Shown here piece after piece: positions 939 through 16,176 of a stretch of 64,000 nt of DNA. Below the pieces are notes generated by a model. That model was not told the DNA's origin, did not search any database, and saw nothing but the letters and a program-made list of their open reading frames with translations. The stretch lies in the NCBI RefSeq assembly GCF_001905845.1, contig NZ_LIVZ01000004.1, forward strand, positions 496,001-560,000. Direction: 5' to 3'. The stretch's first letter is position 1. The number at the start of each line of letters is the position of its first letter. The translations under genes and the position numbers were made by a program. This DNA is from Streptomyces sp. TSRI0107 (GTDB lineage Bacteria; Actinomycetota; Actinomycetes; Streptomycetales; Streptomycetaceae).

Positions 939-2476
939 TAGGTGGCTCGTTCGCGCAGCACACCTACGAGCTCACGCACGCCCAGCGGGGTGCGAAAACG
1001 CCACAAACTTATACCGAATACACACATTCCCAAGACCATTCCGACGGTGAGGCCGAGGGGTGTGTCGCCTGCCCAGAGCCTGGCGGGGAGGGCGAGGGCC
1101 ACGGTGAGGCAGAGCCCGGCGGCGGTCGCGGCGAGGTACCCGCGGTCGATGGTCGTGAAGCCGGCCCGCCGCACCAGGGCGACCGCGAGGAGGTTCTCCA
1201 CGACGATCGCCGCTCCCCAGGACAGGGCCGCTCCGAGGATTCCCAGGCGGGGCACGGCGAAGAGGCCGACGGACAGCTGTACGGCGAAGGCGGCCCCGGT
1301 GGCCGCCAGGTGCCGTGAGCTCTGGCCGGCCATGAGCAGCACCGTCTGGGCGTTTCCGGACCCGATGTTGACGGCCGAGGCGATGCAGAGGACGGCCAGG
1401 GCCTGCGCCCCCTGTACGAACTCCGGGCCGAAGAGGGCGAGGACCGTGCCGGGGAAACCGGCCAGCAGCACGAAGAACGGCCAGGAGAACAGCACGGTCC
1501 AGCGCGTCGAGATGCGGTGCAGGTGACCCGCCTGCTGCATCTCGCCGAGGGCGAGCAGCCGGCTGATCTGCGGAGCCACGGCTCTCCGGATGGCCTGCTG
1601 GACCAGCATGCCCGCGACGATGACCCGGGTGATGGCCGTGTAGATGCCGGCCTCCTCGCTCGTGGCGAGGCTGGACAGCAGGATGACCCCGATCCACAGC
1701 GCGCTGATGTCGAAGACCGAGGAGATGGCGCGTGGCGCGGAGAAGGCCCAGAATCCCCGCCACGGAACGGCCGTCTCGCCTCCCGCGGCCCCCTTGGCGC
1801 CGCCCCGGTACCGGCGCAGCCACGTCCACGCCGCGAGGGCCCCGGCGAGCGAGGGGATCACCCACGCCGCGGCCAGGCTCAGCACTCCCGGAGCGATCAG
1901 CACGACCGGTACCGCGATCAGTACCCGCAGGACCGGTTTGCCGATCTGCTCGACCCCGATGAAGGGGAGCACGGTGCCGTACCCCTGGCTGGCGCCGAGC
2001 AGGATCAGGCTCACGGTGGCGGCGGGGAGGAACACCGCGACGAGCCGGATCAGGGTGACGGCGTCCCCCGGCGCCACGTTCGGCAGCAGTGACGTGGCAA
2101 CCGACGGGGTGACGAACAGCAGCGCGCCGACCACCGTGCTCACCACCGCTCCGGGGACGAGGGCGGTGCGCAGCAGCGCGCCGACCCGGCGGCCTCCCCC
2201 GGTGGCCACGTCGCGGGACACGAAGCGGACCAGCCCGGTGTCGGCGCCGAGCTTGCAGCAGTGGCTGAGGATGGTCAGGACGGCGACCCCGGTGTACACC
2301 ACTCCCGAGCCGTGCGCTCCCAGCGCGCGGGTGACCAGGGCGACGAGGACGTACGCGCAGACGGCGCTGACCAGCGAACCCAGGAAGCCCCACCATCCGC
2401 CCCGCGCGGTGGCGGCGACATCGCTGCGCGCGGCCGAACCGCCGGTGCCGGACACGGCTGTTCGCGGGGCGTTCAT
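938..2476 (-). CDS. Polysaccharide flippase (Wzx/MATE-like)
   Basis: This 512-residue protein has about 12-14 hydrophobic segments and no large soluble domain. An early motif in segments 1-2 (LVTRALGAHGSG) resembles the polysaccharide biosynthesis/oligosaccharide flippase family of the MOP superfamily. Members move lipid-linked repeat units across the membrane. The start overlaps the stop of the upstream chain-length gene (positions 2473-2476), which suggests translational coupling. It sits next to the polymerase-like and Wzz-like genes, as expected for a Wzx/Wzy-dependent pathway. Exact substrate unknown. Confidence 0.85.
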   Translation of the reverse strand: MNAPRTAVSGTGGSAARSDVAATARGGWWGFLGSLVSAVCAYVLVALVTRALGAHGSGVVYTGVAVLTILSHCCKLGADTGLVRFVSRDVATGGGRRVGALLRTALVPGAVVSTVVGALLFVTPSVATSLLPNVAPGDAVTLIRLVAVFLPAATVSLILLGASQGYGTVLPFIGVEQIGKPVLRVLIAVPVVLIAPGVLSLAAAWVIPSLAGALAAWTWLRRYRGGAKGAAGGETAVPWRGFWAFSAPRAISSVFDISALWIGVILLSSLATSEEAGIYTAITRVIVAGMLVQQAIRRAVAPQISRLLALGEMQQAGHLHRISTRWTVLFSWPFFVLLAGFPGTVLALFGPEFVQGAQALAVLCIASAVNIGSGNAQTVLLMAGQSSRHLAATGAAFAVQLSVGLFAVPRLGILGAALSWGAAIVVENLLAVALVRRAGFTTIDRGYLAATAAGLCLTVALALPARLWAGDTPLGLTVGMVLGMCVFGISLWRFRTPLGVRELVGVLRERAT

Positions 2477-4050
2477 CGTGACGCGCTGAGCGCGTCGCCG
2501 TCGGTGTCACGCGCGGGCGCGAGCAGTTCCCCCGTGCCGTCCACCGGCGCGGCCGGTGCCGGGGCGGCGGGCTCCCGCTCCGGCCGGAGCCGGAGCCGGC
2601 GCCGCCCCGCGTCGGCGTCGGCGTCGAGCACCGCGCCCAGGACGCGTCCGCCCGAGCAGCCGATCAGCTCGCGCACCCGCCTGAGCTCGTCGCGCGTGGT
2701 GTCGTATCCGCCCACCACCAGGACGCCGTCCACTCGCTGGGCGGCCGCGAGGCCGTCGGCGTTCCGGAGCAGCGGCCGGGTGAGGACGAGCGCGGAGACG
2801 CCGGACTCGGCGACCTGCAGGGTGCGGGACAGCATGGCGGACGCCGGCACGCCGTCGGTCACGGTGGCGCCGCGCCGGTCGGGGTAGAGCGTGAAGCGTC
2901 CGGCCGTGCCCGCCTCGACGACGGCTCCGCCTTCGAGGACGCCGGCCGCGTCGGTCGCGAGCGGCAGTCGTGCCGAGACGCCGGGGCCGGTCGCGGCGGC
3001 GTCCACCAGCAGCACCTCGTCGCCGAACTCGGCGAACGCGGCGGCGAGGTTCACCGCGGTGGCCTCGGCGTCGTGGTCCTCCTTCGGCGCCACGATCATG
3101 AGCTTGGTGCCGGGCGGGCAGCCCTCTCCGTGCCTGAGGCGGAAGGCGAGAGTCCGATACGCCTCGGCGCGGCTGCTGCCGTCCCGGCCGACCGCGAGGA
3201 GGTCGCCCTCCACCTCGGGCTGCGGAAGGATCCCCAGTACGGGAGCGCCGAGCGCCGCCTGGACCTCGCCGACCGAGCGCACCCGCGGTTCGAGGGCGGA
3301 ACGCAGCCAGGCGAGCACGACACCTCCGAAGAGGCCGCCCAGCAGGCCGATGCCGATGAGCCAGACGGGGCCCGGTCCCGCGGGCCGCGCCGGAGGCTCG
3401 GCGGTGCGCACGACGTCGCCGCCGCTGGTGTCGTACGACCTGATGTCCGACAGACGCTTCTGCAGCGCGTTGACGCGGTCCCGCCGGCCCGCGGCCGCGC
3501 CGGAGTCGTCCTTCGCGGTGTTCTGCTCGGTCAGCGCCGTGATCTCCTGTTGCAGAGCACTCGTCATCCGCTGCACCGTGGCGTCGGTTCGGCTCTTTCG
3601 GTCGGCGAGGTAGGCGTCGGCGAAGGCGTTGGCCACCCGGGCCGCCCGCCGCGGGGCGCCCGCGGTGTACTCGAACCTGAGGATCTGGGTGTGGGGCGGG
3701 TTGGTGACGCGCAGATCCTCCTGCAGCGCCCCGGCCCGGGACGGCTGCCCCAGTGCCTCCGCCGCGCGGGACGCGACGGTGGCGCTGAGCGCGATCTGCC
3801 GCTCCGTGCCCATGCTCACCTGGTTCTCGACGGACACGCCGAAGGTGCTGAACGGGTCGGTGGTCGCCCGGACGAGGACCTCACTCGTGGACGTGTAGCT
3901 GCCCGCGCGGAACAGCACCAGCAGCAATCCGCCGAGCAGCCCGAGCACCACGCCGAGGACGATCGTCGTGCGGTACCTCAGCAGCTGGCGCAGTTGGTCG
4001 CGAAGCCGGTCCGTCTCCTCGTACCGGTCGTCGAAGCTAGGGCTGGACAC
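2473..4050 (-). CDS. Wzz/BY-kinase-like chain-length protein with degenerate kinase domain
   Basis: This 525-residue protein has a Wzz-type organisation. One membrane segment lies near residues 27-49 and a second near 228-250, flanking an extracytoplasmic, partly coiled region. The C-terminal half has the fold order of a bacterial tyrosine kinase or MinD-like ATPase, with strands ending in KLMIVAP and EVLLVDAA. However, the Walker A position reads APKEDHDAEATA and has no GK(S/T). The second Asp of Walker A' is missing, and the C-terminus has no Tyr cluster. I therefore call it a chain-length/co-polymerase protein with a pseudokinase domain. It overlaps the polymerase-like gene by 14 bp and the flippase by 4 bp. 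Confidence 0.8.
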   Translation of the reverse strand: MSSPSFDDRYEETDRLRDQLRQLLRYRTTIVLGVVLGLLGGLLLVLFRAGSYTSTSEVLVRATTDPFSTFGVSVENQVSMGTERQIALSATVASRAAEALGQPSRAGALQEDLRVTNPPHTQILRFEYTAGAPRRAARVANAFADAYLADRKSRTDATVQRMTSALQQEITALTEQNTAKDDSGAAAGRRDRVNALQKRLSDIRSYDTSGGDVVRTAEPPARPAGPGPVWLIGIGLLGGLFGGVVLAWLRSALEPRVRSVGEVQAALGAPVLGILPQPEVEGDLLAVGRDGSSRAEAYRTLAFRLRHGEGCPPGTKLMIVAPKEDHDAEATAVNLAAAFAEFGDEVLLVDAAATGPGVSARLPLATDAAGVLEGGAVVEAGTAGRFTLYPDRRGATVTDGVPASAMLSRTLQVAESGVSALVLTRPLLRNADGLAAAQRVDGVLVVGGYDTTRDELRRVRELIGCSGGRVLGAVLDADADAGRRRLRLRPEREPAAPAPAAPVDGTGELLAPARDTDGDALSASR

Positions 4051-5500
4051 GAATGCCTCCTGTTCCGGGGGTCGGTGCGTGGCCGGCGGTCGCGGGCGGC
4101 AGCGCCGACGAGGGGGCCCGGGAACGCCGGGCGGCGGGAACGGTGATGAACAGCGGAACGGTCAGCAGCAGCAGCATCGGTCCCGCGATGCCCATGAGGC
4201 TGCCGCGCAGAAGGATCATCTGGTAGAAGGCGAAAGCGGGGACCAGGAGAACCGCGAACGCGGCCCGCCGGTCCCGCAGCAGCTCCCAGAGGTCGTCCAT
4301 ACGACGGCCCAGCGCGCCCATCAGGCAGAAGACGACGACCACGGCGGGCACCCCGGCCCAGAGGTAACTCTCGATCCACAGCGGGGCCGACAGATTGTGG
4401 AATTCGTGACCCGCGTACTGGGCGATCGCTACACCGCTGGCCTGCGGCTTCTCGGGCCACACGGCGCGGGGCACCATGAAGAGGGCCACGCCCAGCGCGG
4501 ACGACGGCGAGAATCCGTCGTCCTCCACGTAGTCGATGCCGGTCTGCATCTGCTGGAACGCGTCGTAGTCCATGGTCGTGCTCAGCTGTTCCGCCAGGCT
4601 CATGACGCTGAGCTCTTCGCGTTCGTCGTAGCGGAAGTAGTCGCTGTAGGGGAACGCGAAGAGGATCACGGCCGTGAGTGCCGCGGCGGCGGCGCGGAAG
4701 GCCTTGGGGCGGCGGAACCGGCGCCAGGAGAAGAGCAGGACCAGAAGGACGGTCCCGGCCCAGAACCGCGGCTTGCTGATCGGGTTGTTGACCACGACGT
4801 TGACCGCGATGAGCAGCGGGAGCAGCATCCAGCGGACGCCCCGCAGCAAGCGGTCGCCGCCCGACGGGCGGGGCAGGTGCAGCAGCGCCAGCAGCGACCA
4901 GAAGGCGGGCACGGCGAGGGCCCAGGCCAGCAGCGCCCGCACGGAGTCCGTCGCCACGTCGGCCTCCCGTACGGCCTGCCTGCTGGTGAAGAACGCGTCC
5001 AGCCCGCCCTGCCGGGGGATCAGCACGACCGCGAGAACGAGCGACAGACCGCTGAGGAGGAGCACGGGCCGGGGAGCCAGCTTGCGGGACAGCAGGGATC
5101 CGAGAGCGGTCGCCCCGTCACCCGCGGCCCTGGCGGCGAGCGCGGATCCCGCGCTGTAGGCGACGAGCCCGAGTTCGGTCAGGACCACGGCGGCCAGGGC
5201 GGTGGAATCGCTGGTGCGGTAGCCGAGGGGATAGGTGTCGGTCGCGAGCATGGCGAGCGGCGCCAGGCCGAGCCACACATAGGTGAAGAGCCAGAACCCG
5301 AAGGCGACGAGTCGCACCGACGTGGCGGTGAGCACCCGGGCCAGCGCCGCACCCGTGTGCACCACGACGACGCACTGCACGGCGACAGCCGCCCCGAACC
5401 GGACATGAGGGGTCAGCAGGACCAGCCCGGGCAGCAGCCCGACGAGCACGACGGTCCAGCAGCACACCGCTGCGACCGAACGCTCCTTACCGTCCCGCAC
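4037..5500 (-). CDS. Polytopic O-antigen polymerase-like (Wzy-type) membrane protein
   Basis: This 487-residue protein has about 11-12 membrane segments and one longer hydrophilic loop (around residues 290-330, acidic and Tyr-rich). That topology is typical of Wzy/O-antigen polymerase or ligase proteins. Sequence conservation in the family is low, so the call rests on topology and location between a glycosyltransferase and the Wzz/Wzx genes. It overlaps both neighbours (14 bp each), so the operon is tightly packed. It could instead be an O-antigen ligase. Confidence 0.65.
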   Translation of the reverse strand: MRDGKERSVAAVCCWTVVLVGLLPGLVLLTPHVRFGAAVAVQCVVVVHTGAALARVLTATSVRLVAFGFWLFTYVWLGLAPLAMLATDTYPLGYRTSDSTALAAVVLTELGLVAYSAGSALAARAAGDGATALGSLLSRKLAPRPVLLLSGLSLVLAVVLIPRQGGLDAFFTSRQAVREADVATDSVRALLAWALAVPAFWSLLALLHLPRPSGGDRLLRGVRWMLLPLLIAVNVVVNNPISKPRFWAGTVLLVLLFSWRRFRRPKAFRAAAAALTAVILFAFPYSDYFRYDEREELSVMSLAEQLSTTMDYDAFQQMQTGIDYVEDDGFSPSSALGVALFMVPRAVWPEKPQASGVAIAQYAGHEFHNLSAPLWIESYLWAGVPAVVVVFCLMGALGRRMDDLWELLRDRRAAFAVLLVPAFAFYQMILLRGSLMGIAGPMLLLLTVPLFITVPAARRSRAPSSALPPATAGHAPTPGTGGIRVQP

Positions 5501-6695
5501 CGGACGCCCCGATCGCCGTTCTCAGGATCTCCTCGAACCGCGAGGCGCAGTTCTCCAGAGCGAACTCCCGCTCGGCCAGCGACCGGCTTTCCTTCCCCAG
5601 TGCCTCGGCGTGCGCCGGGTCGTCGAACACCTCGCGAACCCAGCGGGCCGCGCCGTCCAGCGCGGACTCCTCCGGCGGGAACACCGCCGAGCTGGCCTGG
5701 CGGAGCAGTTTGGCCGCCGGGTTGCCCGCCGGCATCAGCCCCAGCACCGGGCGCCCGGCGCACAAGTAGGACAGCGTCTTGGACGGCACCGAGAACTCTC
5801 CGGCGTCCTCCGCCAGCAGCACGACCAGCACGTCACCCGTGCCGAGCACCTCGGGCAGCCGCTCGTAGGGCTGGAAGGGCAGCAGGGTCAGGGGGACGCC
5901 CCGGGCGGCGGCCGCCTCCTTCAGCACGGGGACGGCCGGGCCGTCGTTGACCACGACCAGGCGGACCTGCTCGCCCTGCTCCCGCAGCCGCTCGACCAGC
6001 CCCACCAGCAGGACGGGGTTGTGCTTGAGGCCGAGGGTGCCCGAGTACAGCACGGTCCGGACGCCGGTGAGGCCGTGCTCCGCCGACCACGCGTTGTCGC
6101 GGGGGGCGGGCAGGATCTCGTCCAGCGGGGCCCAGTTGGGGATGACGGTGACCTTGCCGTCGGTGCCCCACTCCCTGTGCACCCGCAGGAAGGAGCCGGC
6201 GATCACCACGATCGCCGCCGCCCGTCGCGCCGCCCACTTCTCGGCCCGTTCGAAGACCTTGGCGGCGACGCCCATCAGCCTGGAGACTCCGGCGGCGGCG
6301 AAGCTCTTGAGCGCGATGGCGGTGACGTCCTGGTGCCACAGCACCCACGGGATGCGCAGCGCCCCGAGCATCAGCGCGGCCACGGACAGCGTCGGGATCG
6401 GCAGGTTGCCGAGCAGCGCCACCCGCGGTCTCTCGCGCCGTACCTGCCGGGCGAGTTCGAAGCCGAGCCGGGTCTCCTGGAAGAGGCGCCGGACGTACGC
6501 CTCCTTGTCCAGCACGACGGTGTCTCCGATGGTGACGAAGCGCAGGCCGTCGACCGCGTCTGCGGCGAGGTCGCCCTTCCCGGAGACGTAGGCGGCGCAG
6601 GTGGAATGCACCACGTCGTGGCCGCGGCGTGCCAGCTCGCGGCTGAGCTGCGCCTGGAACGGGTGTCCGCTGTAGTCGTGGACGAGGATCCTCAT
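5487..6695 (-). CDS. Glycosyltransferase, family 4 (GT-B fold)
   Basis: The protein has 402 residues. The N-terminus (MRILVHDYSGHPFQAQLSREL) is a GT-B entry strand with a His/Gly loop. The C-terminal half has the nucleotide-sugar site: YSGTLGLKHNP, then LLPFQPYERLPEVL, then an SVPSKTLSYLCAGRPVLG segment that includes the family E-S/P-K-x-x-E region in variant form. It resembles WbuB-like transferases that add a sugar to lipid-linked intermediates. The ATG start is preceded by a GGAG-like stretch. It lies 27 bp after the epimerase gene. Donor and linkage cannot be read from sequence; a GDP-sugar donor is plausible because of the neighbouring epimerase. Confidence 0.82.
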   Translation of the reverse strand: MRILVHDYSGHPFQAQLSRELARRGHDVVHSTCAAYVSGKGDLAADAVDGLRFVTIGDTVVLDKEAYVRRLFQETRLGFELARQVRRERPRVALLGNLPIPTLSVAALMLGALRIPWVLWHQDVTAIALKSFAAAGVSRLMGVAAKVFERAEKWAARRAAAIVVIAGSFLRVHREWGTDGKVTVIPNWAPLDEILPAPRDNAWSAEHGLTGVRTVLYSGTLGLKHNPVLLVGLVERLREQGEQVRLVVVNDGPAVPVLKEAAAARGVPLTLLPFQPYERLPEVLGTGDVLVVLLAEDAGEFSVPSKTLSYLCAGRPVLGLMPAGNPAAKLLRQASSAVFPPEESALDGAARWVREVFDDPAHAEALGKESRSLAEREFALENCASRFEEILRTAIGASGAGR

Positions 6696-6722: not shown

Positions 6723-7703
6723 TCAGTGCTGGGCGAGCTTCACCTGGTCGTACACCCAGGCGTACGTCCTCTCCAGCCCTTCGGCCAGCGGGATCGACGG
6801 CTCCCAGCCGTAGAGTTCCCGGATCAGGCTGTTGTCGGAGTTGCGGCCCCGCACGCCCTGGGGGGCGTCCAGCCGGTACGAGCGCTCGCAGCGGATGCCC
6901 GCGATCTCCTCGACGATGTCGACCAGTTGGTTGATGGTGACGAGCTCCGAGGAGCCGACGTTGACCGGGACGCCGCTGTCTCCGTCCATGACCAGCCGCG
7001 TGCCCCGCAGGCAGTCGTCGATGTACATGAAGGAGCGGGTCTGCCGGCCGTCGCCCCAGATCTCGATCCGGTGATCACCGGAGACAGCGGCCTCGGCGAT
7101 CTTGCGGCACACGGCTGCCGGGGCCTTCTCGCGGCCTCCGGTCCAGGTGCCCTCGGGGCCGTAGACGTTGTGGTAGCGCGCGACGCGGCAGGTGAACCCG
7201 AAGTCCTCCTCGAAGTGCCGGCACATGCGCTCGGAGAACAGCTTCTCCCAGCCGTAGCCGTCCTCGGGCTGGGCCGGGTACGCGTCCTCCTCCTTCAACG
7301 CGGTGACGTCGGGGTCGTTCTGCTTGCCGGCTGCGTACACGCAGGCGGAGGAGGAGTAGAAGTAGCGCTCCACGCCGGCCTCGTGCGCCGCCTTCAGCAT
7401 GTGGGTGCTGGTCAGCACCGACATCATGCAGGCGGCCTTGTGGTTCTCGATGAAGCCCATGCCGCCCATGTCGGCGGCGAGCATGTACACCTGGCGGGCG
7501 TCACGGACGGCGGCGCGGGCCTCGTCGAGCAGCGACAGGTCGGCGACGACGTTCTCGGCGGCCTCGTGCACCTGCTGCCACGCATGCCGGGGCTTGATGT
7601 CGACGCAGCGGACGGTCAGCCCCCGGGCCAGGAGGTCGGCCGCGAGGTGGCCACCGATGAATCCTCCGCCTCCGGCGACGACGACATCCACCTGCTTGCT
7701 CAT
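6723..7703 (-). CDS. GDP-mannose 3,5-epimerase homologue (extended SDR)
   Basis: The 326-residue protein starts with a Rossmann glycine motif (GGGGFIGG, residues 11-18). It carries the signatures of GDP-mannose 3,5-epimerase: ADMGGMGFI (77-85), SSSACVY with Cys121, Y150-x3-K154, and GGREKAPAA with Lys193, then DGRQTRSF and GVRGRNSDN. In the plant enzyme the equivalents of Cys121 and Lys193 are the acid/base pair and Tyr/Lys is the SDR pair. Expected products are GDP-L-galactose and/or GDP-L-gulose. The start at 7703 was chosen because AAGGAG lies about 6 bases upstream; a longer frame reaches 7748. It probably supplies a donor for the neighbouring glycosyltransferases. A UDP-sugar epimerase is much less likely given these motifs. 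Confidence 0.88.
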   Translation of the reverse strand: MSKQVDVVVAGGGGFIGGHLAADLLARGLTVRCVDIKPRHAWQQVHEAAENVVADLSLLDEARAAVRDARQVYMLAADMGGMGFIENHKAACMMSVLTSTHMLKAAHEAGVERYFYSSSACVYAAGKQNDPDVTALKEEDAYPAQPEDGYGWEKLFSERMCRHFEEDFGFTCRVARYHNVYGPEGTWTGGREKAPAAVCRKIAEAAVSGDHRIEIWGDGRQTRSFMYIDDCLRGTRLVMDGDSGVPVNVGSSELVTINQLVDIVEEIAGIRCERSYRLDAPQGVRGRNSDNSLIRELYGWEPSIPLAEGLERTYAWVYDQVKLAQH

Positions 7704-7828: not shown

Positions 7829-8533
7829 TCACGACAGCTCCCGGAACCACTTGGCGAGAAACGCCGGCAGCATGACGACGTGCGCCGCGAGCAGGGTGAC
7901 GTACAGCGCGAGGAAGAGCTCCTGGTTCCCCACGAACAGGAAGAGCAGGCACAGCAGGCCGTAGTCCACCGGTAGCAGTGCCATGCCGCGCAGCACCGAG
8001 GGCCGGTCCGCCGCGGCAGCCCGTGCCCCGGCGGACCGCCTCATCAGCTGCTCCACCAGAATGCCCGCGAAGAACAACACCACGGCCGCGAACTGAAAGA
8101 CGAGCGGGGCCAGCAGCCACACAGGAGCCGGCAGGTCGAAGAAGCGGTGGAACGAGACCAGGACAGCCGCGTGGACGCCCAGCAGCTTCGCGCAGTCGAC
8201 CACGTGGTCCACCCATTCACCGGCCACGCTGGCCGACCGGTGCAGCCGGGCCAGCTGGCCGTCCGCCGAGTCGAGCGCGAAGCCGAGCAGCAGGGCGAGG
8301 CAGACCCACTGGCCGAGCGCGTGCGAGGGCCGGCACAGGGCGATCGCCGCGATGGCCGTGAAGGTGACCAGGGCGCTGGCGGCGGTCACCTGGTTGGGCG
8401 ACAGCCCGACACGGTGCGCCGCCGCCGCGAGCAGCCTGCCCGCCGGCCGGTTGACGAACCGTGCGTAACCGGGGACGCCCCGGCCGGGTTTCTGCACCTC
8501 TGAGAGCTGCCGCAGGGCACTGGAGAAGTCCAT
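7829..8533 (-). CDS. CDP-alcohol phosphatidyltransferase family membrane protein
   Basis: The protein has 234 residues and several membrane segments. It carries the full family motif D-x2-D-G-x2-A-R-x8-G-x3-D-x3-D with Asp88, Asp91, Asp109 and Asp113. The family transfers a phospho-alcohol group from a CDP-alcohol to a second alcohol such as glycerol-phosphate, inositol-phosphate or serine. It lies 4 bp after a glycosyltransferase and 125 bp before the epimerase, inside the polysaccharide operon. Modification of a lipid anchor or of the polymer with a phospho-alditol is therefore possible, but this is inference. It could also be a phospholipid synthase that happens to sit here. Confidence 0.85.
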   Translation of the reverse strand: MDFSSALRQLSEVQKPGRGVPGYARFVNRPAGRLLAAAAHRVGLSPNQVTAASALVTFTAIAAIALCRPSHALGQWVCLALLLGFALDSADGQLARLHRSASVAGEWVDHVVDCAKLLGVHAAVLVSFHRFFDLPAPVWLLAPLVFQFAAVVLFFAGILVEQLMRRSAGARAAAADRPSVLRGMALLPVDYGLLCLLFLFVGNQELFLALYVTLLAAHVVMLPAFLAKWFRELS

Positions 8534-8537
8534 GCTC

Positions 8538-9683
8538 TCAACCTCGTGTCATCGCGGGCGGGCGGGCGCTGCACGACCGCCGGTAGATGTCCTCCAGCCG
8601 GTCCGTCACCGCGTGGACGGAGAACGCCTCCGCTACGGCGCGCCGTCCCGCCGCGGCGAGCGCGACCCGCTTGTCCTCGTCGGCCAGCAGGTCGCACACC
8701 GCGTCGGCCAGATCCCGGGGGCTGCCGTCGGTGACCACCGCCGCCCCCCGGCGAGCCAGCTCGTCGGCGATGCCGCAGGTGTCGGTGCACACCACGGGGG
8801 TGCCCGCGGAGAGCGCCTCGATCACGGTCATCCCGAACGGCTCGTCGACGCTGGGCAGCACGTAGACGGCCGCCCTCCCGTAGGCCCGTACCGCCTCCGC
8901 GTGCTCCAGCGCCCCGCCGTAGGAGACGACGCCCTGCAGCCCGTGGGCGACGATGAGCCGGCGCACCGCGGGCAGCACGCCCTCGTCCGCCCCGTACAGG
9001 GTGAACCGGACGTCGGGCACCCTCCGGTGCACCAGCGCGGCCATCTCGACGAACGCGTCCGGGCGCTTGCGCGGGTGGAGCCGGGCGAGGAAGAGCACCT
9101 CCCGCTCCCTCGGCCGCCTCGCACCGTCCCCCGCCCGCTCCGGCCGCACCCCGTTGGGCAGGGTCAGCAGCGGCGGACCGCCGGCGCCGATGACCTCGGC
9201 CACGTGCCGGCGCTCCTGCTCCGTGAGGACCAGGCAGCCGCGCGCCCGTCGCAGCAGAGGTACGTACAGACGGTCGAAGAGCCGGACGGCGGCGCCGCGC
9301 CGGGGCTGCACCATTCCGTGCGTCTGCGCGACGAACCCCCGGCGCCGCAACGCCGCCACGGCCAGCGCCGCGAGGGACACCAGGTCACGCCCCGCGTGGA
9401 TGTGCACCACGTCGGCCCTGCCCATGGCACGCCACATGTCCCCGAGAAGCAGCGGGTGCATGAGCCCGGTGAACCGCCCCGGGAGCAGGGATCGCGCGGG
9501 GCGCGTCCGCAGCGGCACGGAGCCGACGCGGCGCGGCGCCAGGGACCTGCCCCGCCACAAGGACACCAAGGTGACGTCGTGGCCGCGCGCCGCGCACTCC
9601 TCCAACTGCCCGGCGGCCACGCTGGTGGGTCCGCCGTACGCCCCGTCGTCGCTGACCAGCGTCACCACGTGCACGATCCTCAT
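8538..9683 (-). CDS. Glycosyltransferase, family 4
   Basis: This 381-residue GT-B enzyme begins MRIVHVVTLVSDDGAYGG, which contains the Gly-Gly acceptor loop of GT4 enzymes. The C-terminal half shows LFLARLHPRKRPDAFVEM and SVDEPFGMTVIEALSAGTPV, with the E-x7-E donor-binding motif (EPFGMTVIE). The start ATG overlaps the stop of the acetyltransferase gene as ATGA (9680-9683), so I prefer it over upstream in-frame codons that give a non-family extension. It likely adds a sugar to the growing lipid-linked unit. Confidence 0.85.
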   Translation of the reverse strand: MRIVHVVTLVSDDGAYGGPTSVAAGQLEECAARGHDVTLVSLWRGRSLAPRRVGSVPLRTRPARSLLPGRFTGLMHPLLLGDMWRAMGRADVVHIHAGRDLVSLAALAVAALRRRGFVAQTHGMVQPRRGAAVRLFDRLYVPLLRRARGCLVLTEQERRHVAEVIGAGGPPLLTLPNGVRPERAGDGARRPREREVLFLARLHPRKRPDAFVEMAALVHRRVPDVRFTLYGADEGVLPAVRRLIVAHGLQGVVSYGGALEHAEAVRAYGRAAVYVLPSVDEPFGMTVIEALSAGTPVVCTDTCGIADELARRGAAVVTDGSPRDLADAVCDLLADEDKRVALAAAGRRAVAEAFSVHAVTDRLEDIYRRSCSARPPAMTRG

Positions 9684-10267
9684 ACGGCGGCTCCGGAACC
9701 GATGACCTCGCCCCGGCCGACGTCGCGGCGGGCGACCGCCGAGGCGCCCACCACCGCACCGCGGCCGACGGTGACACCGCGCAGCACGACCGCACGCGCC
9801 GCCACCCAGGAGCCCGGCTCCAGGCGGATGGGCCCGTTGTCGAACTCGAAGGTGTGACTGTGGCGTTGGTGGCTGCCCGTGCACAGCAGCGCCTCCTGGG
9901 AGACGCACACGTCGCTGCCGATCGTGATCTGCTCCAGGTTCAGCAGCCAGGCGCCCTCGCCGATCCAGACGTCGTCACCGACACGCAGCCGCCACGGCCA
10001 GTGCACGCGGACCCCGTGACGGATGAGCACCCGCTGTCCGACCTGCGCGCCGAACGCCCGCAGCACCGAGGGCCGCCAGCGGGCCGGGAACCACCATTTG
10101 ACGAAGACGAGATGGAGTACGGCGAACCAGGCCGCCTGGACGAGCAGCGGGCGCCCCTTGTCGTAGCCGGCTCCGGTGAAGCCCCGCAGGGAACGCCGCG
10201 CGACCGCCCGGTGCTCCGGCACGGCCGGGCGGATTCCGGTCTCTGGTGGCACTGCGGTCTCTGCCAT
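9680..10267 (-). CDS. WcaF-like acetyltransferase (left-handed beta-helix)
   Basis: The protein has 195 residues from the ATG at 10267, which has GGGAAGGG upstream. An alternative GTG at 10309 adds 14 residues. The C-terminal half holds hexapeptide repeats (for example ITIGSD, VTVGRGAVVGASAV). A GSHQRHSHTF segment matches the catalytic-His loop of WcaF/NodL-type O-acetyltransferases. The YDKGRP and W-rich region near the N-terminus is typical of the colanic-acid WcaF group. It probably O-acetylates the exopolysaccharide. It is coupled by a 4-bp overlap to the next glycosyltransferase. Confidence 0.85.
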   Translation of the reverse strand: MAETAVPPETGIRPAVPEHRAVARRSLRGFTGAGYDKGRPLLVQAAWFAVLHLVFVKWWFPARWRPSVLRAFGAQVGQRVLIRHGVRVHWPWRLRVGDDVWIGEGAWLLNLEQITIGSDVCVSQEALLCTGSHQRHSHTFEFDNGPIRLEPGSWVAARAVVLRGVTVGRGAVVGASAVARRDVGRGEVIGSGAAV

Positions 10268-10441
10268 GGCGATGGCCCTTCCCCGACTGGACGGTATGCC
10301 TATCGGCACAAGGTGCTATGAACCGGTGATCCGAGCCACCACATACCGGTGTGTCGCGGACAGACTCGACCGCACGGATCAGCGCCGCCCGATCGGCGGC
10401 GGGGCGGCTCCCGGTGGCGGGGCGGCTCCGATGGCGGGCGT

Positions 10442-11914
10442 TCAGTAGGCCCCGCGTCCGTCCAGCACGGCGCGGACCGTGCGGGCCATGACGGACATGT
10501 CCCATGTCCACGACCAGTTGTCGACGTAGCGCAGGTCGAGCGAGACGGTCTCGTGCCAGGACAGGTCGGACCGTCCGCTCACCTGCCACAGTCCCGTGAG
10601 GCCGGGCTTCACGCTCAGCCGGCGCATCTCCACCTGGTCGTACCGGGCGACTTCCTCGGGGAGCGGGGGCCGGGGCCCCACCAGGGACATGTGTCCGAGC
10701 AGGACGTTGACCAGCTGGGGAAGCTCGTCCAGCGAATAGCGGCGCAGGAAGCGGCCGACAGGGGTGGTACGCGGGTCCTGGCGGAGCTTGAACATGTGGC
10801 CGTCGTGCTCGTTCACCCCCTCCAGCTCACCCTTCATCCGGTCGGCCCCCACGACCATGGTCCGGAACTTCCACATGGAGAAGTGGGTGTTGTTCCGCCC
10901 CACTCGCGTCTGGCGGTAGATGACGGGGCCGGGCGAGGTGACGCGCACGGCGACCGCGAGGAGCGCGAACAGCGGAGCCAGCGCGACGAGCAGGAGAAGC
11001 GCGCCAACCTGATCCGTCACGGCCTTCAGGACCGTGGACAGGCCGCGCCGCGTCGGCGGTTTCACGTGCAGCAGGGTGAGCCCGGCCGCTGAGGTGAGCC
11101 GGACCCGGCGCCGGGTCACCTCGACGATGCCCGGCAGGACCATCAGCGGGCGGCCCCGGTCGTGCAACGACCAGGACAGCCGCCGCAGCCGGTCCCCGGA
11201 CAGGTGTCCGCTCGCCGCCACGAAGACCATGTCGGCGCCGAGCACCTCGACCGCCTCGCCCACCGACGCGGCGTCGCCCTCGGGGCCGGCCGACGCGTCC
11301 GCCTCCAGCCGGGAACACACGCGTACGCCGGACAGCACCGGGCCCTCGCCGACCACACAGGCGCCGACCGCCACGTACCCGTGGTCGGTGCGCTCGGCGA
11401 GCCGCCCGACCACGGCGTCGACGGTCGCGGCCTCACCGACGACCAGCACCCGGCGCAGCGCCTGCGCGCGTCGGCGGACGGCGCGCAGATGGCGGTGGAT
11501 CCCCTTGCGGAGGACGACGGTGACGAGCACCGAGGGACACAGTGCCGCGAGGACGGCGGCGGGCGCGCCACCGGCCCCCCAGGCGGCGCGCAGCACGACC
11601 CAGGCCCCGACGAGCACCAGCCAGTCCCGCACGACCGGCCCGACCGGGGCGCCCTCGTCCCAGGTCCACGGCGCGTACCGGCGCGCGGCGATGCCCACGA
11701 GCACCCAGAGGACGCCGATCACCACCGCCTGGTGCACGGGGCGGGGGTCCCCGAAGGCGAACAGCATGGCCGCCGCGGGGACAGCCGCCCCGGCGGCGTC
11801 GACAGCGACGGTGGCGGGCAGACACCGTCCAACCCCACTGCTGTTGAACGAAGTTGCCCTGGGCGGCGCCAGAGTCGCCGCCTGCCGTGATGCCGCGCTG
11901 ATGGACTGCCGCAT
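10442..11914 (-). CDS. Polyprenyl-phosphate sugar phosphotransferase (initiating enzyme, WbaP/WcaJ type)
   Basis: This 490-residue protein has N-terminal membrane segments, a central CoA-binding-like soluble domain (RRVLVVGEA...), one further membrane helix near residue 300, and the C-terminal bacterial sugar transferase domain. Diagnostic motifs are KFRTM, RRYSLDELPQL, GPRPPLPEE and PGLTGLWQVSGRS. It transfers a hexose-1-phosphate from a UDP-sugar to undecaprenyl phosphate and so starts repeat-unit assembly. It is the first gene of the minus-strand operon; the 404-bp gap upstream should hold its promoter. The donor sugar (glucose or galactose) is not decidable by eye. Confidence 0.93.
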   Translation of the reverse strand: MRQSISAASRQAATLAPPRATSFNSSGVGRCLPATVAVDAAGAAVPAAAMLFAFGDPRPVHQAVVIGVLWVLVGIAARRYAPWTWDEGAPVGPVVRDWLVLVGAWVVLRAAWGAGGAPAAVLAALCPSVLVTVVLRKGIHRHLRAVRRRAQALRRVLVVGEAATVDAVVGRLAERTDHGYVAVGACVVGEGPVLSGVRVCSRLEADASAGPEGDAASVGEAVEVLGADMVFVAASGHLSGDRLRRLSWSLHDRGRPLMVLPGIVEVTRRRVRLTSAAGLTLLHVKPPTRRGLSTVLKAVTDQVGALLLLVALAPLFALLAVAVRVTSPGPVIYRQTRVGRNNTHFSMWKFRTMVVGADRMKGELEGVNEHDGHMFKLRQDPRTTPVGRFLRRYSLDELPQLVNVLLGHMSLVGPRPPLPEEVARYDQVEMRRLSVKPGLTGLWQVSGRSDLSWHETVSLDLRYVDNWSWTWDMSVMARTVRAVLDGRGAY

Positions 11915-12318
11915 GGCTCTCCCTGGGACCCCGTGGAAGACGTAGGGCGCGGCTGCAACGGCACGGGCAGAGCAGCGCGCACGCCTGATGTGATCGTTAT
12001 ATCAACGTTCCACCCCTTACGCCCTATTTACATGCTGTATAGATGAGCGCGGCCACCGGCACGCAGGGCACCTCATCAGGGGCCGCGACCCCGCGACCGG
12101 CCCGTCGCCAAAGCGCCGCGACATGAGGGCAGTTCACCTTGTCAGCCGAATTGCGGCTCGTATGGCGTAAGGGCGAGATGTCGCGAGGTGTGTCAGCGAT
12201 CGGATTATGCAAATGTTGCATCGCCCGGTGGCGGACAGAGGTTCCATTCTCGAATTGCCAATGGAAACGGCGCGAGTGTCCGCGGGGGCAAACCAAAAAA
12301 CTAGGAGGAATACTCGTC
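11915..12318. other. Divergent intergenic region, 404 bp
   Basis: The region separates the polysaccharide operon (minus) from the secreted-protein gene (plus). It is clearly more A/T-rich than its surroundings at about 11995-12060 and 12200-12310. I see no convincing gene. It should contain both promoters. One short palindrome (12207-12221) and a strong ribosome binding site AGGAGG at 12303-12308 are visible. Confidence 0.6.
12207..12221. promoter_or_regulatory. Palindrome ATGCAA-N3-TTGCAT
   Basis: A perfect 6-bp inverted repeat with a 3-nt centre lies about 100 bp upstream of the secreted-protein start in an A/T-rich stretch. It could be an operator. No matching second copy was found, so this is weak evidence. 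Confidence 0.3.
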
Positions 12319-12840
12319 ATGCGAGTAGCTACCCGTATGTCGCGCTCGGCAGTGGCCGCGACGCGTCTTCTCGGCGTCGGCCTCACCACGGCCGTGGCCG
12401 TCGGTCTCGCCGCCGCCCCCGCCTCGGCCGCGCCGGACGTCCCCCCCATCTTCATCGAGGGCAACCCGGCGCTGACGTGCCCCGCCGGCGGCGAAGGCCT
12501 GAGGGTCCCCCCCACCGACGCGGAGTACGAGGTCGAGCTCGAGAACGGCGAGACCGGCGTGCTCAACGTCGACATCAGCGACGACGGCACCCTGCTCACC
12601 TTCAGCATCGACCTCGGTGGCGAGATCGCCGTCCGCAGCGTCACCGTCAAGGGCGGCCCCAACGCCAACCGCTACGTCTACGACGCGGCGAACGGCTTCC
12701 CGAACGGCACCACGGGCGACGACGACCTCGTGTCCCCGCTGAACCCGGGCGGCAACATCCCCGAGATCAGCCACATCGACTTCTGCTTCATCCCGAGCGA
12801 CTACGACAACGGCAACGGTAACGGCGGCGGCACCGCCTGA
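12319..12840 (+). CDS. Small secreted protein of unknown function
   Basis: The 173-residue protein starts at an ATG preceded by AGGAGG with 10-nt spacing. The signal peptide runs to about residue 41 and ends in ASA-AP. The mature part is acidic and holds two widely spaced Cys (LTCPAGG and DFCFIP) that could form a disulphide. It contains VTVKGGPNANRYVY, a DDDLVSPLNPGGN segment and ISHIDFCF near the C-terminus. This pattern (KGG...N.Y, then L..P.N....ISH..FC) recurs in small secreted proteins of actinomycetes that I know only as hypothetical. The tail is Asn/Gly repeats. It is followed by a strong terminator, so it is probably monocistronic. Confidence 0.85.
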   Translation: MRVATRMSRSAVAATRLLGVGLTTAVAVGLAAAPASAAPDVPPIFIEGNPALTCPAGGEGLRVPPTDAEYEVELENGETGVLNVDISDDGTLLTFSIDLGGEIAVRSVTVKGGPNANRYVYDAANGFPNGTTGDDDLVSPLNPGGNIPEISHIDFCFIPSDYDNGNGNGGGTA

Positions 12841-12963: not shown

Positions 12964-14082
12964 ATGTCACATCCAGGCCGCCTCGCGCGGCAACCGGTCC
13001 GCGTGGGCCTGGCCTCACTCACCACTGCTGCCGCCCTCCTTGCCGTCAGCCTCACACAACCCGCTTCGGCGGCCATCCCGGGCGCACAGGCCGCCGCCGA
13101 CGGCGGCGTACCGGCCTCCGTCACCAAGTTCTCCGGCGCGTGGCACTTGCCCTGGGCGATCTCGTTCCTGCCGGACGGGCAGTCCGCGCTGGTGACCGAG
13201 AAACACAGATCCCAGGTGTACCGGCTCGGCCGGGACGGCACCAGGAAACTGATCGGCACCGTGCCCCACTCGGTCATCGGTTCCAATCCGAGCGCCACCG
13301 GCGGGCTGCTCGGCGTGGCCCCGTCGCCGACCTGGAACGGCACGACGGACAAGCGCGTGTTCTTCATGCACACCACGGCCACGGACGCCCGCGTCGTCCG
13401 CATGGACTACGACGGCACGTCGCTGACCGGCTACACCACGGTCCTCGGCGGCATCCAGTGGAAGGGCAACCACACCGGAGGCAAGATCGCCTTCGGCCCC
13501 GACGGGTACCTCTACGTGACGACCGCCGACGCCTGGCAGCCGCAGCTGGCGCAGGACAAGAACTCCCTGAACGGGAAGATCCTTCGCATCACCAAGTCCG
13601 GCGCCGCCGCCCCCGGCAACCCGTTCGGCAACCGGGTCTACAGCTACGGGCACCGCAACGCGCAGGGCCTGGCCTGGGACCGCCAGGGCAGGCTGTGGTC
13701 GGTGGAGATCGGCCAGGACAAGTACGACGAACTGAACCTGATCAAGCCCGGCGCCAACTACGGCTGGCCCACCTGCGAGGGCACCTGCACCGCGGCGGGT
13801 ATGACCAACCCCAAGCGCACCTGGACACCGGCGGAGGGCACACCCGCCCAACTCGCCGTCGTACGCAACGTTCTGTACATCTCGTCGCTGCGCGGCCAGC
13901 GGCTGTGGCGGGTCTCGATCACCGGGGACACCGAGCAGGTCGGCACGAAGGCCGCCTACTACGCCGGCGCGTACGGCCGGCTGCGCGCCATCGCCAAGGT
14001 CCCGGGCGCCGACCAACTGTGGGTCGGCACCAGCGACCGAGGAACCGACAAGGACAACATCCACCAAGTCACCATCAAGTGA
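12964..14082 (+). CDS. Secreted PQQ-dependent sugar dehydrogenase (GSDH/sorbosone dehydrogenase family)
   Basis: The protein has 372 residues with a signal peptide ending around residues 34-38 (PASAA). The mature part is a six-bladed propeller of the soluble glucose/aldose/sorbosone dehydrogenase type. It shows HLPWAISFLPDG (61-72), GGLLGVAP, NHTGGKIAFGPDGYLYV with His170 at the catalytic-base position, NSLNGKILRI, YSYGHRNAQGLAWD, then ELNLIKPGANYGWP. Family members oxidise aldoses or related alcohols using PQQ and Ca2+. The gene stands 28 bp upstream of pqqA on the same strand, so enzyme and cofactor synthesis are probably co-expressed. The sugar oxidised is unknown. Confidence 0.9.
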   Translation: MSHPGRLARQPVRVGLASLTTAAALLAVSLTQPASAAIPGAQAAADGGVPASVTKFSGAWHLPWAISFLPDGQSALVTEKHRSQVYRLGRDGTRKLIGTVPHSVIGSNPSATGGLLGVAPSPTWNGTTDKRVFFMHTTATDARVVRMDYDGTSLTGYTTVLGGIQWKGNHTGGKIAFGPDGYLYVTTADAWQPQLAQDKNSLNGKILRITKSGAAAPGNPFGNRVYSYGHRNAQGLAWDRQGRLWSVEIGQDKYDELNLIKPGANYGWPTCEGTCTAAGMTNPKRTWTPAEGTPAQLAVVRNVLYISSLRGQRLWRVSITGDTEQVGTKAAYYAGAYGRLRAIAKVPGADQLWVGTSDRGTDKDNIHQVTIK

Positions 14083-14110
14083 CCCCCATACCGAGAAGGG
14101 CACACGAGAC

Positions 14111-14248
14111 ATGAACGAGAGCACGCAGCAGACGCATCCGGCCGAGCAGCACCCCGCGCAGGAGACGAGGACCGCCTGGCAGACCCCTGAGTTCACCGAA
14201 GTCGACACCGCCCTCGAAGTGACCGCCTACTCCCTCAACTCCCGCTGA
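14111..14248 (+). CDS. pqqA: PqqA, PQQ precursor peptide (extended form)
   Basis: This 45-residue peptide ends with the PqqA core: Trp23, then PEFTEV, then E36-V-T-A-Y40 and a short NSR tail. In the pathway PqqE links the Glu and Tyr side chains of the E-x3-Y motif, and these become the PQQ skeleton. Classical PqqA peptides are about 22-30 residues, so the first 20 residues here (Gln/His/Pro/Glu-rich) are an N-terminal extension. The usual Gly before the core Glu is replaced (ALEVTAY). It lies between the dehydrogenase and pqqB, 16 bp before pqqB. Confidence 0.88.
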   Translation: MNESTQQTHPAEQHPAQETRTAWQTPEFTEVDTALEVTAYSLNSR

Positions 14249-14264
14249 CCGAAGAGCCGAAGCC

Positions 14265-15167
14265 ATGCTGCTGCTGGTACTCGGCACCGCCGCCGGCGGC
14301 GGGATCCCCCAGTGGAACTGTGCGTGTCCCGGATGCTCCGGGGCACGCGCGCATCCACACCGCCGCCGCCGTCACGCCTCGCTCGCCGTCCGCGCGGGGG
14401 AAGGCCGCTGGTACGTCGTCAACGCCACCCCCGACCTCGGCGACCAGATCGAGGCCCACCCCGGACTGCACCCGGGCCCCGGCCCCCGGCAGACGCCGCT
14501 CGCCGGAATCGTCCTCACCGACGCCGAACTCGACCACACCCTCGGCATCCCCCGTCTGCGCGAGGCGGACGGCCTCCAGGTGCTCGCGACGGCCCCCGTC
14601 CGCCAGGCCCTCCTGGACCGCCTGCACCTCGGCGACGTACTCACGCCGTACACCTCCGTGACCTGGCGGGAGCTGCCCCGGCGCGGTGCCGAGCCGCTGG
14701 ATACGGAGACGGCCGGGGGCCTGCGGATCACCGGCATCCCGGTGTCGGGCAAGCGCCCCCGGTACGCCGCCGACGCGCCCGGCGACGACGCCTGGGTGAT
14801 CGCCCTGCGCCTGTACGACCCCGCCACCGGCGGCACCGCGCTCTACGCGCCGGCGCTCGCCGCCTGGCCGGACCACTTCCAGCGGGCCGCCGAGGAGGCC
14901 GACTGCGTCATCGTCGACGGCACCTTCTGGGACGACGAGGAGCCCCGCCGCACCGGCATCTCCTCGCGCACCGCCACCGGCATGGGCCATCCGCCCATCG
15001 AGGGGCCGGGCGGCACCGCCGAGCGCCTCGCGCACCTCTCCGCCCGCTGCCTCTACACGCACCTCAACAACACCAACCCCCTCGTCGACCCGGCGGCACC
15101 CCAGCACAAGCGGCTCGCCCGGCTGGGTCTCGAGGTGGCACACGACGGAATGGTGATCGAGCTGTGA
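14265..15167 (+). CDS. pqqB: PqqB, metallo-hydrolase-fold PQQ biosynthesis protein
   Basis: At 300 residues it matches usual PqqB length. The N-terminus has GTAAGGGIPQWNC followed by the CxCxxC zinc site (CACPGC). The metallo-beta-lactamase-like region has LTDAELDHTLGIPRLRE and later the GTFWDDEE and GHPPI segments of the family. PqqB acts late in PQQ formation, as an iron-dependent hydroxylase on the tyrosine part. The stop overlaps the GTG of pqqC (GTGA, 15164-15167), so translation is probably coupled. Confidence 0.95.
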   Translation: MLLLVLGTAAGGGIPQWNCACPGCSGARAHPHRRRRHASLAVRAGEGRWYVVNATPDLGDQIEAHPGLHPGPGPRQTPLAGIVLTDAELDHTLGIPRLREADGLQVLATAPVRQALLDRLHLGDVLTPYTSVTWRELPRRGAEPLDTETAGGLRITGIPVSGKRPRYAADAPGDDAWVIALRLYDPATGGTALYAPALAAWPDHFQRAAEEADCVIVDGTFWDDEEPRRTGISSRTATGMGHPPIEGPGGTAERLAHLSARCLYTHLNNTNPLVDPAAPQHKRLARLGLEVAHDGMVIEL

Positions 15168-15907
15168 CCACGGCACTCGCCCCACGCCCCGAGCCCTCCG
15201 CCCCCGCCGAGCCCTGGACTCCCGCAGAGTTCGAGGCACGGCTGCGCGCGGTCACCCAGGAGCGGTACCACGACCGCCACCCCTTCAACCTCCGTATGCA
15301 CAGCGGCGATCTCACCCCGGCCGAGCTGCGCCGCTGGATCGCCAACCGCTTCCACTACCAGCGCCACATCCCCGTCAAGGACGCGCTGATCACCGCCAAG
15401 CTGGACACTTCCGCGCTGCGCCGGATGTGGCTGCGCCGCATCGAGGACCACGACGGCCGGGAAGAGGGCGAGGGCGGCATCGAACGGTGGCTGCGGCTCG
15501 CCGAGGCGGCCGGCCTGGACCGCGAGACGCTGCTCCGCACGGACGACGTACTCCCCGGCGTACGACTCGCGGTCGACGGATACGTCAACTTCTGCCGGCA
15601 CCGCCCGCCCCTCGAAGCCGTCGCCGCCTCGCTCACCGAACTCGCCGCCCCCGATCTGATGCGCACCCGCATCGACGCCTTCGAGCGCCACTACCGGTGG
15701 ATCGAGGCCGACGGCCTCGCCTACTTCCGCACCCGGGTCGACCAGGGCCGGCGCGACAGCGGCGAGGCGCTCGGCCTCGTACTCGCCTGGGCCCGCACCC
15801 GGGACGGCCAGGAACGCGCCGTAGCCGCCCTGCGCTTCAAGTGCGAGGTCCTGTGGTCGCTGCTGGACGCGGTGGAGGCGGCGGGCAGCCGCGAGGAGAA
15901 CCCGTGA
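15164..15907 (+). CDS. pqqC: PqqC, pyrroloquinoline-quinone synthase
   Basis: This 247-residue all-helical oxidase has the PqqC signatures HPFNLRMHSGDLT, WIANRFHYQRHIPVKDA, RRIEDHDG and GYVNFCRHR, then ERHYRWI. It catalyses the final ring closure and eight-electron oxidation to PQQ. The GTG start at 15164 is chosen because of the GTGA overlap with pqqB. The stop overlaps the start of pqqD in the same way. The first 15 residues are Pro/Ala-rich and may be disordered. Confidence 0.95.
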   Translation: MTTALAPRPEPSAPAEPWTPAEFEARLRAVTQERYHDRHPFNLRMHSGDLTPAELRRWIANRFHYQRHIPVKDALITAKLDTSALRRMWLRRIEDHDGREEGEGGIERWLRLAEAAGLDRETLLRTDDVLPGVRLAVDGYVNFCRHRPPLEAVAASLTELAAPDLMRTRIDAFERHYRWIEADGLAYFRTRVDQGRRDSGEALGLVLAWARTRDGQERAVAALRFKCEVLWSLLDAVEAAGSREENP

Positions 15908-16176
15908 CCGAGGCGACCGGGAGCGGCTGGCGCCCCGTCCTCACCCCGGGCGCGCTGCGCCGCCACGACCCCGTCCGCGACGCCGTCCTGCTCCTCCTCC
16001 CCGAGCGCGTCGGCGTCCTGACCGGTCACGGCGGGGAGATCGTCGAGCTGTGCGACGGCACCCGGAGTGTGCGCGGGATCGTCGACACGCTGGCCGACCG
16101 GTTTCCCGGCGCCCCGGTCGGCACCGACGTACCCCCGTTCCTGGAGCGGCTGCGCGAGGAGGGCTGGCTCAGATGA
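15904..16176 (+). CDS. pqqD: PqqD, peptide chaperone for PqqA
   Basis: This 90-residue protein of the RiPP recognition element fold has LLLLPERVGVL, then GEIVELCDGTRSV and LERLREEGWL, all typical of PqqD. It binds PqqA and presents it to PqqE. It starts at the GTG that overlaps the pqqC stop and ends in an ATGA overlap with pqqE (16173-16176). Confidence 0.93.
   Translation: MTEATGSGWRPVLTPGALRRHDPVRDAVLLLLPERVGVLTGHGGEIVELCDGTRSVRGIVDTLADRFPGAPVGTDVPPFLERLREEGWLR

Follow-up and report, generated by a model that had tools for sequence, protein, structure and literature searches.

A GDP-mannose 3,5-epimerase and a partner glycosyltransferase probably form an exchangeable L-galactose cassette in a Streptomyces exopolysaccharide operon

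GDP-mannose is the common precursor of two related donors: GDP-mannose 4,6-dehydratase (Gmd), the first enzyme towards GDP-L-fucose, acts together with Fcl, and GDP-mannose 3,5-epimerase (GME) yields GDP-L-galactose. L-galactose is 6-hydroxy-L-fucose, that is, it has the same configuration with an added C6 hydroxyl. Besides plants, a few bacteria are known to have a GME, and most of these bacterial enzymes have no assigned role; the Arabidopsis thaliana enzyme (2C5A, 2C54, 2C59, 2C5E) serves vitamin C and the cell wall. The first bacterial GME to be assayed was MfGM35E of Methylacidiphilum fumariolicum, which is described as lying near a CDP-alcohol phosphotransferase (annotated as a PGP synthase) and a glycosyltransferase (PMC6678494). 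The same source describes actinobacterial GME-type proteins, one (BlmG) proposed for the L-gulose of bleomycin and the other an activity described for the L-galactose (L-galactofuranose) of A201A (PMC6678494). Two polysaccharide clusters also bear comparison: that for colanic acid in Escherichia coli (wcaJ, wcaI, wcaF, gmd, wcaG, wzx, wzc), in which WcaI was assigned to fucose solely by its position among fucose genes (PMC4443731), and the ste cluster of Streptomyces sp. 139, with 27 ORFs including the fucosyltransferase Ste7, for the exopolysaccharide Ebosin, which contains fucose and galactose (PMC4347597).

The locus described here lies in a 64,000-nucleotide stretch of the Streptomyces sp. 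TSRI0107 genome (‘the window’; NZ_LIVZ01000004.1, positions 496,001 to 560,000). Its GME resembles the Arabidopsis enzyme in fold, in every diagnostic residue tested and at 137 of 315 aligned positions, but it belongs to a separate clade and is housed in an operon probably of the Wzx/Wzy type. As with MfGM35E, a CDP-alcohol phosphotransferase and a glycosyltransferase are close by; however, a relative of MfGM35E (locus L098), near which the phosphotransferase motif is also present, groups with plants (support 80) and not with the window protein. BlmG and the A201A activity, which we compared by description, belong to antibiotic pathways. The colanic acid cluster has the same kinds of parts, namely a WcaJ-like starter, a WcaI-like glycosyltransferase, a WcaF-like acetyltransferase, Wzx and Wzc, but the window has GME and a glycosyltransferase that we call GT4b instead of gmd, wcaG and a WcaI-type transferase, and adds a CDP-alcohol phosphotransferase, a cytidylyltransferase and a secreted propeller. 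We considered Ebosin as the same system and set it apart by description; the word epimerase is absent from PMC4347597. The open-licence literature, mostly in the form of titles and abstracts, yielded nothing on this operon or on the exchange of L-fucose and L-galactose cassettes.

The GME gene (6723–7703, minus strand) encodes 326 amino acids, the span including the stop codon. The ORF is present and intact as originally predicted, from an ATG at 7703–7701, with AAGGAG, a good ribosome-binding site, shortly before it, to a TGA at 6725–6723. Both strands are open across this interval, as is common in DNA of such composition; the strand, which the prediction had left unstated, is the minus. Another 22 genomes of the genus encode orthologues, 83–91% identical to the window protein, and against eight of these the gene has a dN/dS of 0.17–0.25; it is therefore under selection and not a chance frame. 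It is the only GME of its genome, the next relative scoring 97 bits at 30% identity.

By its sequence, this protein is a GME and not a UDP-sugar epimerase or a GDP-fucose synthase. It has the features of an extended SDR, with a Gly-rich NAD motif (GGGGFIG) and a triad of S119, Y150 and K154. Cys121, Tyr150, Lys154 and Lys193, the four residues singled out in the original prediction, stand at the positions claimed and align with Arabidopsis C145, Y174, K178 and K217, of which C145 and K217 are the Cys acid and Lys base. H178 and R287 correspond to H202 and to R306, the Arg that acidifies the Cys, while the substrate-side residues N203, E216, K225, Q241 and R243 are present as N179, E192, K201, Q221 and R223; we take E216, K225 and Q241 to be substrate contacts. 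C145, Y174, K178, K217 and R306 are all kept in the window protein, in its 22 orthologues, and in each of 80 distant loci, which are the most plant-like of at least 528 relatives. In contrast, the seven SDR paralogues that we aligned from this genome have neither the Cys nor the Lys base, and two of them do not extend to the Cys column.

Searches of solved structures point the same way. With phmmer, the five plant GME sequences of the PDB rank highest (E 8e-88 to 1e-86), ahead of a UDP-glucose 4-epimerase, the first match from another family, at E 9e-29. An AlphaFold2 model built from 35 sequences (pLDDT 91) retrieved plant GMEs as its 14 best PDB chains (TM 0.86–0.92), with other SDRs after them; the best has an E of 5e-39 and a TM of 0.92, and the next fold an E of 2e-27. 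Plant GMEs are thus nearest by both sequence and fold, not the UDP-sugar epimerases that the prediction had named as the relatives that would speak against it. We rule out a UDP-sugar epimerase on these rankings, on a score of 75 bits against the GalE model TIGR01179 (cut-off 262), and on the presence of the Cys/Lys pair.

The family tree qualifies one word of the original prediction. A scan of named genomes matched at least 595 stretches, at least 528 of them encoding relatives; the 80 distant loci are those closest to the plant sequence among the matches listed, a sample biased to plant-like forms. The GME tree has 98 rows, comprising these loci, two plasmid hits, the Arabidopsis protein, the window protein, five orthologues out of the 22, a further five GME-like proteins from the genus and four SDRs of the window genome; branch support is SH-aLRT, a quick method without bootstrap. 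The window protein lies within a clade of 31 rows with a support of 100, whose members come from Actinomycetota, Acidobacteriota, Bacteroidota, Azospirillaceae and others. Relative to the SDRs of its own genome it is inside the GME group, yet its clade is distinct from the group (support 80) that holds Arabidopsis and Methylacidiphilum together. ‘Plant-type’ is therefore apt for the active site alone and not for descent, the clade being a separate and strongly supported bacterial one. We know of no assayed enzyme within it. Relatives at E ≤ 1e-60 occur in 4 of 72,556 plasmid records, none of them actinobacterial. Within the genus, the five further GME-like proteins (42–66% identity) are all in genomes that lack the 83–100% identical GME. 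The more distant GME-like proteins of the genus (42–51% identity; L060–L063) lie in natural-product-like regions, and three of them (L061–L063) adjoin very long ORFs that read as NRPS-like from their translations; in L033–L035 Ala stands at N203 and E216, and their substrate or product may differ.

The polysaccharide operon that had been proposed around this gene is real and conserved, as judged from family matches and from comparison with 22 further genomes of the genus. It comprises 11 genes, all on the minus strand, and is probably of the Wzx/Wzy type. It opens with a polyprenyl-phosphate sugar-1-phosphate transferase (10442–11914), the repeat-unit starter, which scores over the cut-off of TIGR03025. 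Next come a WcaF-like hexapeptide O-acetyltransferase (9680–10309; family match), the glycosyltransferase GT4a (8538–9683; the ORF is open to 9908, and we chose the ATG before RIVHVV as the start), and the CDP-alcohol phosphotransferase (7829–8533), with the motif DxxDGxxAR(x8)GxxxDxxxD, which also occurs without GME. GME is followed by GT4b (5487–6695), a GT4 glycosyltransferase distantly related to WcaI that begins 27 bases past the GME stop and is our proposed L-galactosyltransferase. Then come a putative Wzy-type polymerase (4037–5500), assigned from its place and hydrophobic sequence, with no match in Pfam or NCBIfam; a Wzc-like chain-length/P-loop protein (2473–4050); a Wzx-type flippase (938–2476) matched by Pfam Polysacc_synt; and the N-terminal portion of a DUF5122 beta-propeller protein predicted to be secreted (1–863), which starts at 863 and continues past the left edge of the window. 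The last gene, for a cytidylyltransferase-like protein, is just outside the window (L036, 16855–17319).

GME and GT4b are side by side in all 22 orthologous loci, each of which also has GT4a, the WcaF-like gene, Wzy and Wzc around them; the sugar-1-phosphate transferase is in 20, and the CDP-alcohol phosphotransferase, Wzx, propeller and cytidylyltransferase are in 21, the remaining locus (L055) being cut by a contig end. The genes tuf and fusA adjoin ten of the 22 loci, as in the window, where their matches agree with an actinobacterial source; the other 12 are elsewhere, with a different gene order. The gene set extends in large part to Arthrobacter sp. Edens01 (L128), whose GME is 67% identical and is surrounded by homologues of seven operon genes (sugar-1-phosphate transferase, GT4b, WcaF-like, GT4a, Wzy, CDP-alcohol phosphotransferase and Wzc). 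In one genome (G339; L050, 8137–9302) GT4b is split across two frames, by either a frameshift or a sequencing error. Between the operon and tuf/fusA, the window encodes a small predicted secreted protein (12226–12840, plus strand); the ten tuf-linked loci have counterparts in this position, with 31–38% identity. A PQQ operon also adjoins (12964–17324, plus strand): it has a glucose/sorbosone PQQ dehydrogenase-like gene (12964–14082), a PqqA-like peptide at about 14112–14249 that ends in EVTAYSLNSR, and pqqB and pqqE over their NCBIfam cut-offs, the intervening frames being taken for putative pqqC and pqqD.

The cytidylyltransferase is paired with the CDP-alcohol phosphotransferase in Gmd-type operons as well. 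The solved structures nearest to the two proteins are, respectively, an ethanolamine-phosphate cytidylyltransferase (E 7e-22) and AF2299 (E 2.5e-4), too remote to name the alcohol; it is likely that the polymer or a lipid is decorated with a phospho-alcohol. We also followed a lead from PMC6678494 and asked whether GME and CDP-alcohol phosphotransferases are linked in general. We rejected this idea: the motif is near 2 of the 80 most plant-like distant loci (L098 and L128), and within the genus most genomes that have the phosphotransferase of this operon (111 of 134) have no GME orthologue.

It is those 111 genomes that bring out the main result. We surveyed 392 genomes of the genus; they are related, and the counts below are of non-independent events. 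A GME orthologue (83–100% identity) is present in 23, the window's included, and close relatives of GT4b (E ≤ 1e-60) are found in 23, the identical set. The phosphotransferase is in 134 of the 392, and Gmd scores over its curated cut-off in 110 of the 111 that lack GME, the exception (G010) having a Gmd match below the cut-off only. Gmd is within 40 kb in 97 of these 110 genomes, 202 kb away in one, and on another contig in 12. On the other hand, the family model found Gmd over the cut-off in none of the 23 GME genomes, three of which (G164, G317, G376) have weaker relatives below it. A further 22 genomes of the genus have Gmd without the phosphotransferase.

In two of the operons read, the Gmd-type pair fills the slot of GME and GT4b. 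We read ten operons without GME, chosen from the 111 and taken as 20-kb stretches (L153–L162). All ten lack a GME orthologue and have a WcaI-type glycosyltransferase, nine of these sharing 64–76% identity with the L153 protein; Gmd itself falls inside the 20-kb stretch in just two, L153 and L157 (510 and 512 bits; cut-off 415). L153 is syntenic with the window up to tuf/fusA. A WcaI-type transferase and Gmd separate its Wzy gene from that of the CDP-alcohol phosphotransferase, a slot filled in the window by GT4b and GME; its Fcl (470 bits; cut-off 500) has the acetyltransferase on one side and the sugar-1-phosphate transferase on the other. The same transferase–Gmd pair adjoins Wzy in L157. 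GT4b resembles the WcaI-type transferases only remotely, with 28–33% identity over part of its length; against the WcaI model NF007640 (cut-off 276 bits) it scores 82, and the transferases of L153 and L157, likewise below the cut-off, score 254 and 256. A tree built from five concatenated operon proteins (33 loci) requires three or more changes of cassette, with L153 falling inside one GME group and L157 inside the other.

Bearing in mind this reciprocal exclusion and the slot shared with Gmd and a WcaI-type transferase, we conclude, as our main result, that the GME product appears to stand in for GDP-L-fucose in this operon. We consider it probable that GME and GT4b form an exchangeable cassette, and that the polymer carries L-galactose in the position of L-fucose. 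We favour with somewhat less assurance the wider proposal that L-fucose and L-galactose are swapped through this two-gene cassette, with at least three changes among the 33 operons, while the starter, acetyltransferase, second glycosyltransferase, flippase and polymerase stay constant. In the predicted pathway GME is self-contained: its bound NAD would oxidise C4 of GDP-D-mannose, Cys121 and Lys193 would epimerise C5 and C3, and re-reduction of C4 would give mainly GDP-L-galactose. GT4b may then move L-galactose onto the lipid-linked repeat unit started by the polyprenyl-phosphate sugar transferase; this donor is suggested by its genomic company, GME being its partner, and by nothing else. O-acetylation by the WcaF-like enzyme, the second GT4, export by Wzx, polymerisation by Wzy and Wzc, and a CDP-alcohol-derived decoration would complete an exopolysaccharide in which GME and GT4b occupy the place that Gmd and a WcaI-type transferase, presumably for L-fucose, have in the sister operons. 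Catalytic activity, the GT4b donor, the sugar and the polymer are all, in this sense, predicted. A supply of GDP-mannose is likely: the genome has no match to TIGR01479 over the cut-off, and one fused nucleotidyltransferase/phosphomannomutase-type gene is a candidate. There is precedent for such a substitution in plants, since L-galactose is found in L-fucose positions in the fucose-deficient Arabidopsis mutant mur1, and several fucosyltransferases take GDP-L-galactose (PMC8787198).

Could this protein be a GDP-L-fucose synthase (GMER), or some other sugar epimerase, mistaken for a GME? The two enzymes belong to one superfamily, and GDP-L-fucose synthase is the best NCBIfam model for the window protein, but its 118 bits are far below the cut-off of 500. 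GME differs from GDP-fucose synthase in that its base is Lys, not His, and the residue that acidifies the Cys is Arg, not Lys (PMC8787198); at the columns of C121, K193 and R287 of the window protein, a GDP-fucose synthase taken from a sister operon as a control shows C, H and K. With plant GMEs well ahead in the PDB rankings of both sequence and fold, and no Gmd over the cut-off in its own genome to feed such an enzyme (best match, 80 bits), we regard this explanation as highly improbable. A real GME might instead serve a small molecule, such as a vitamin C-like precursor or an antibiotic, or act on another nucleotide sugar. This would be compatible with a clade in which no member is, to our knowledge, assayed, and with Bacteroidota relatives in operons that look catabolic, but it fits poorly with the obligate partner GT4b, with neighbours that match only families of polysaccharide or transfer type, and with the conservation of Wzx, Wzc and the sugar-1-phosphate transferase around GME in the genus and largely in Arthrobacter; we think it quite unlikely.

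Only slightly less unlikely, in our estimation, is that the operon uses the C5 epimer, GDP-L-gulose, and that GT4b is an L-gulosyltransferase. The original prediction left the choice between L-galactose and L-gulose open, and GME enzymes do also yield GDP-L-gulose, along with GDP-D-altrose (PMC8787198); moreover, bleomycin L-gulose is ascribed to BlmG (PMC6678494), and some GME-like proteins of the genus adjoin NRPS-like genes. The NRPS-linked proteins are, however, in a separate clade and altered at the N203 and E216 positions, both of which the window protein keeps. L-galactose is favoured because the cassette and the GDP-L-fucose genes exclude each other and fill one slot, and it is L-galactose, not L-gulose, that shares the configuration of L-fucose. 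The company of related enzymes leads to the same expectation. In 6 of the 80 most plant-like distant loci of at least 528 (L127, L133, L134, L136, L137, L141), all from Bacteroidota and Ignavibacteriota and within the window's GME clade, GME is followed by a gene for a fusion protein of about 378 amino acids, with a cytidylyltransferase-like domain, the only one that Pfam matched, and a part that reads as GHMP-kinase-like from its motifs; a structure model of the fusion reached a pLDDT of 60 and was set aside. Five of these six loci have an alpha-L-fucosidase-family gene, and since fucosidase-like enzymes adjoin related GMEs, L-galactose rather than L-gulose is to be expected. One of them (L127, 5400–16566) adds ManC, a FucP-like transporter, a rhaM-type mutarotase, an alpha-L-fucosidase, a D-lyxose isomerase and a PfkB kinase; loci of this type look like L-galactose catabolism with GME in reverse (L-galactose to GDP-L-galactose to GDP-mannose to mannose).

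The preferred reading thus remains an L-galactose cassette, and the original choice of two sugars is narrowed rather than closed, with L-gulose the minor possibility. That either sugar is uncommon in Gram-positive bacteria, as had been stated, is partly fair: the orthologue is found in 23 of 392 genomes, and the bleomycin and A201A systems are actinobacterial precedents (PMC6678494). Reciprocal exclusion within an otherwise constant operon predicts two near-identical polymers that differ in L-galactose versus L-fucose, and makes GT4b, an uncharacterised GT4, a likely L-galactosyltransferase. If these proposals are correct, GT4b would represent a dedicated bacterial L-galactosyltransferase family, and the locus would offer both an enzymatic way of making L-galactosylated polymers and a natural example of sugar swapping in a Wzx/Wzy-type pathway. 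Through the swap a surface polymer would be altered in nature by ‘one hydroxyl’, with phages, lectins or fucosidases as plausible agents of selection.
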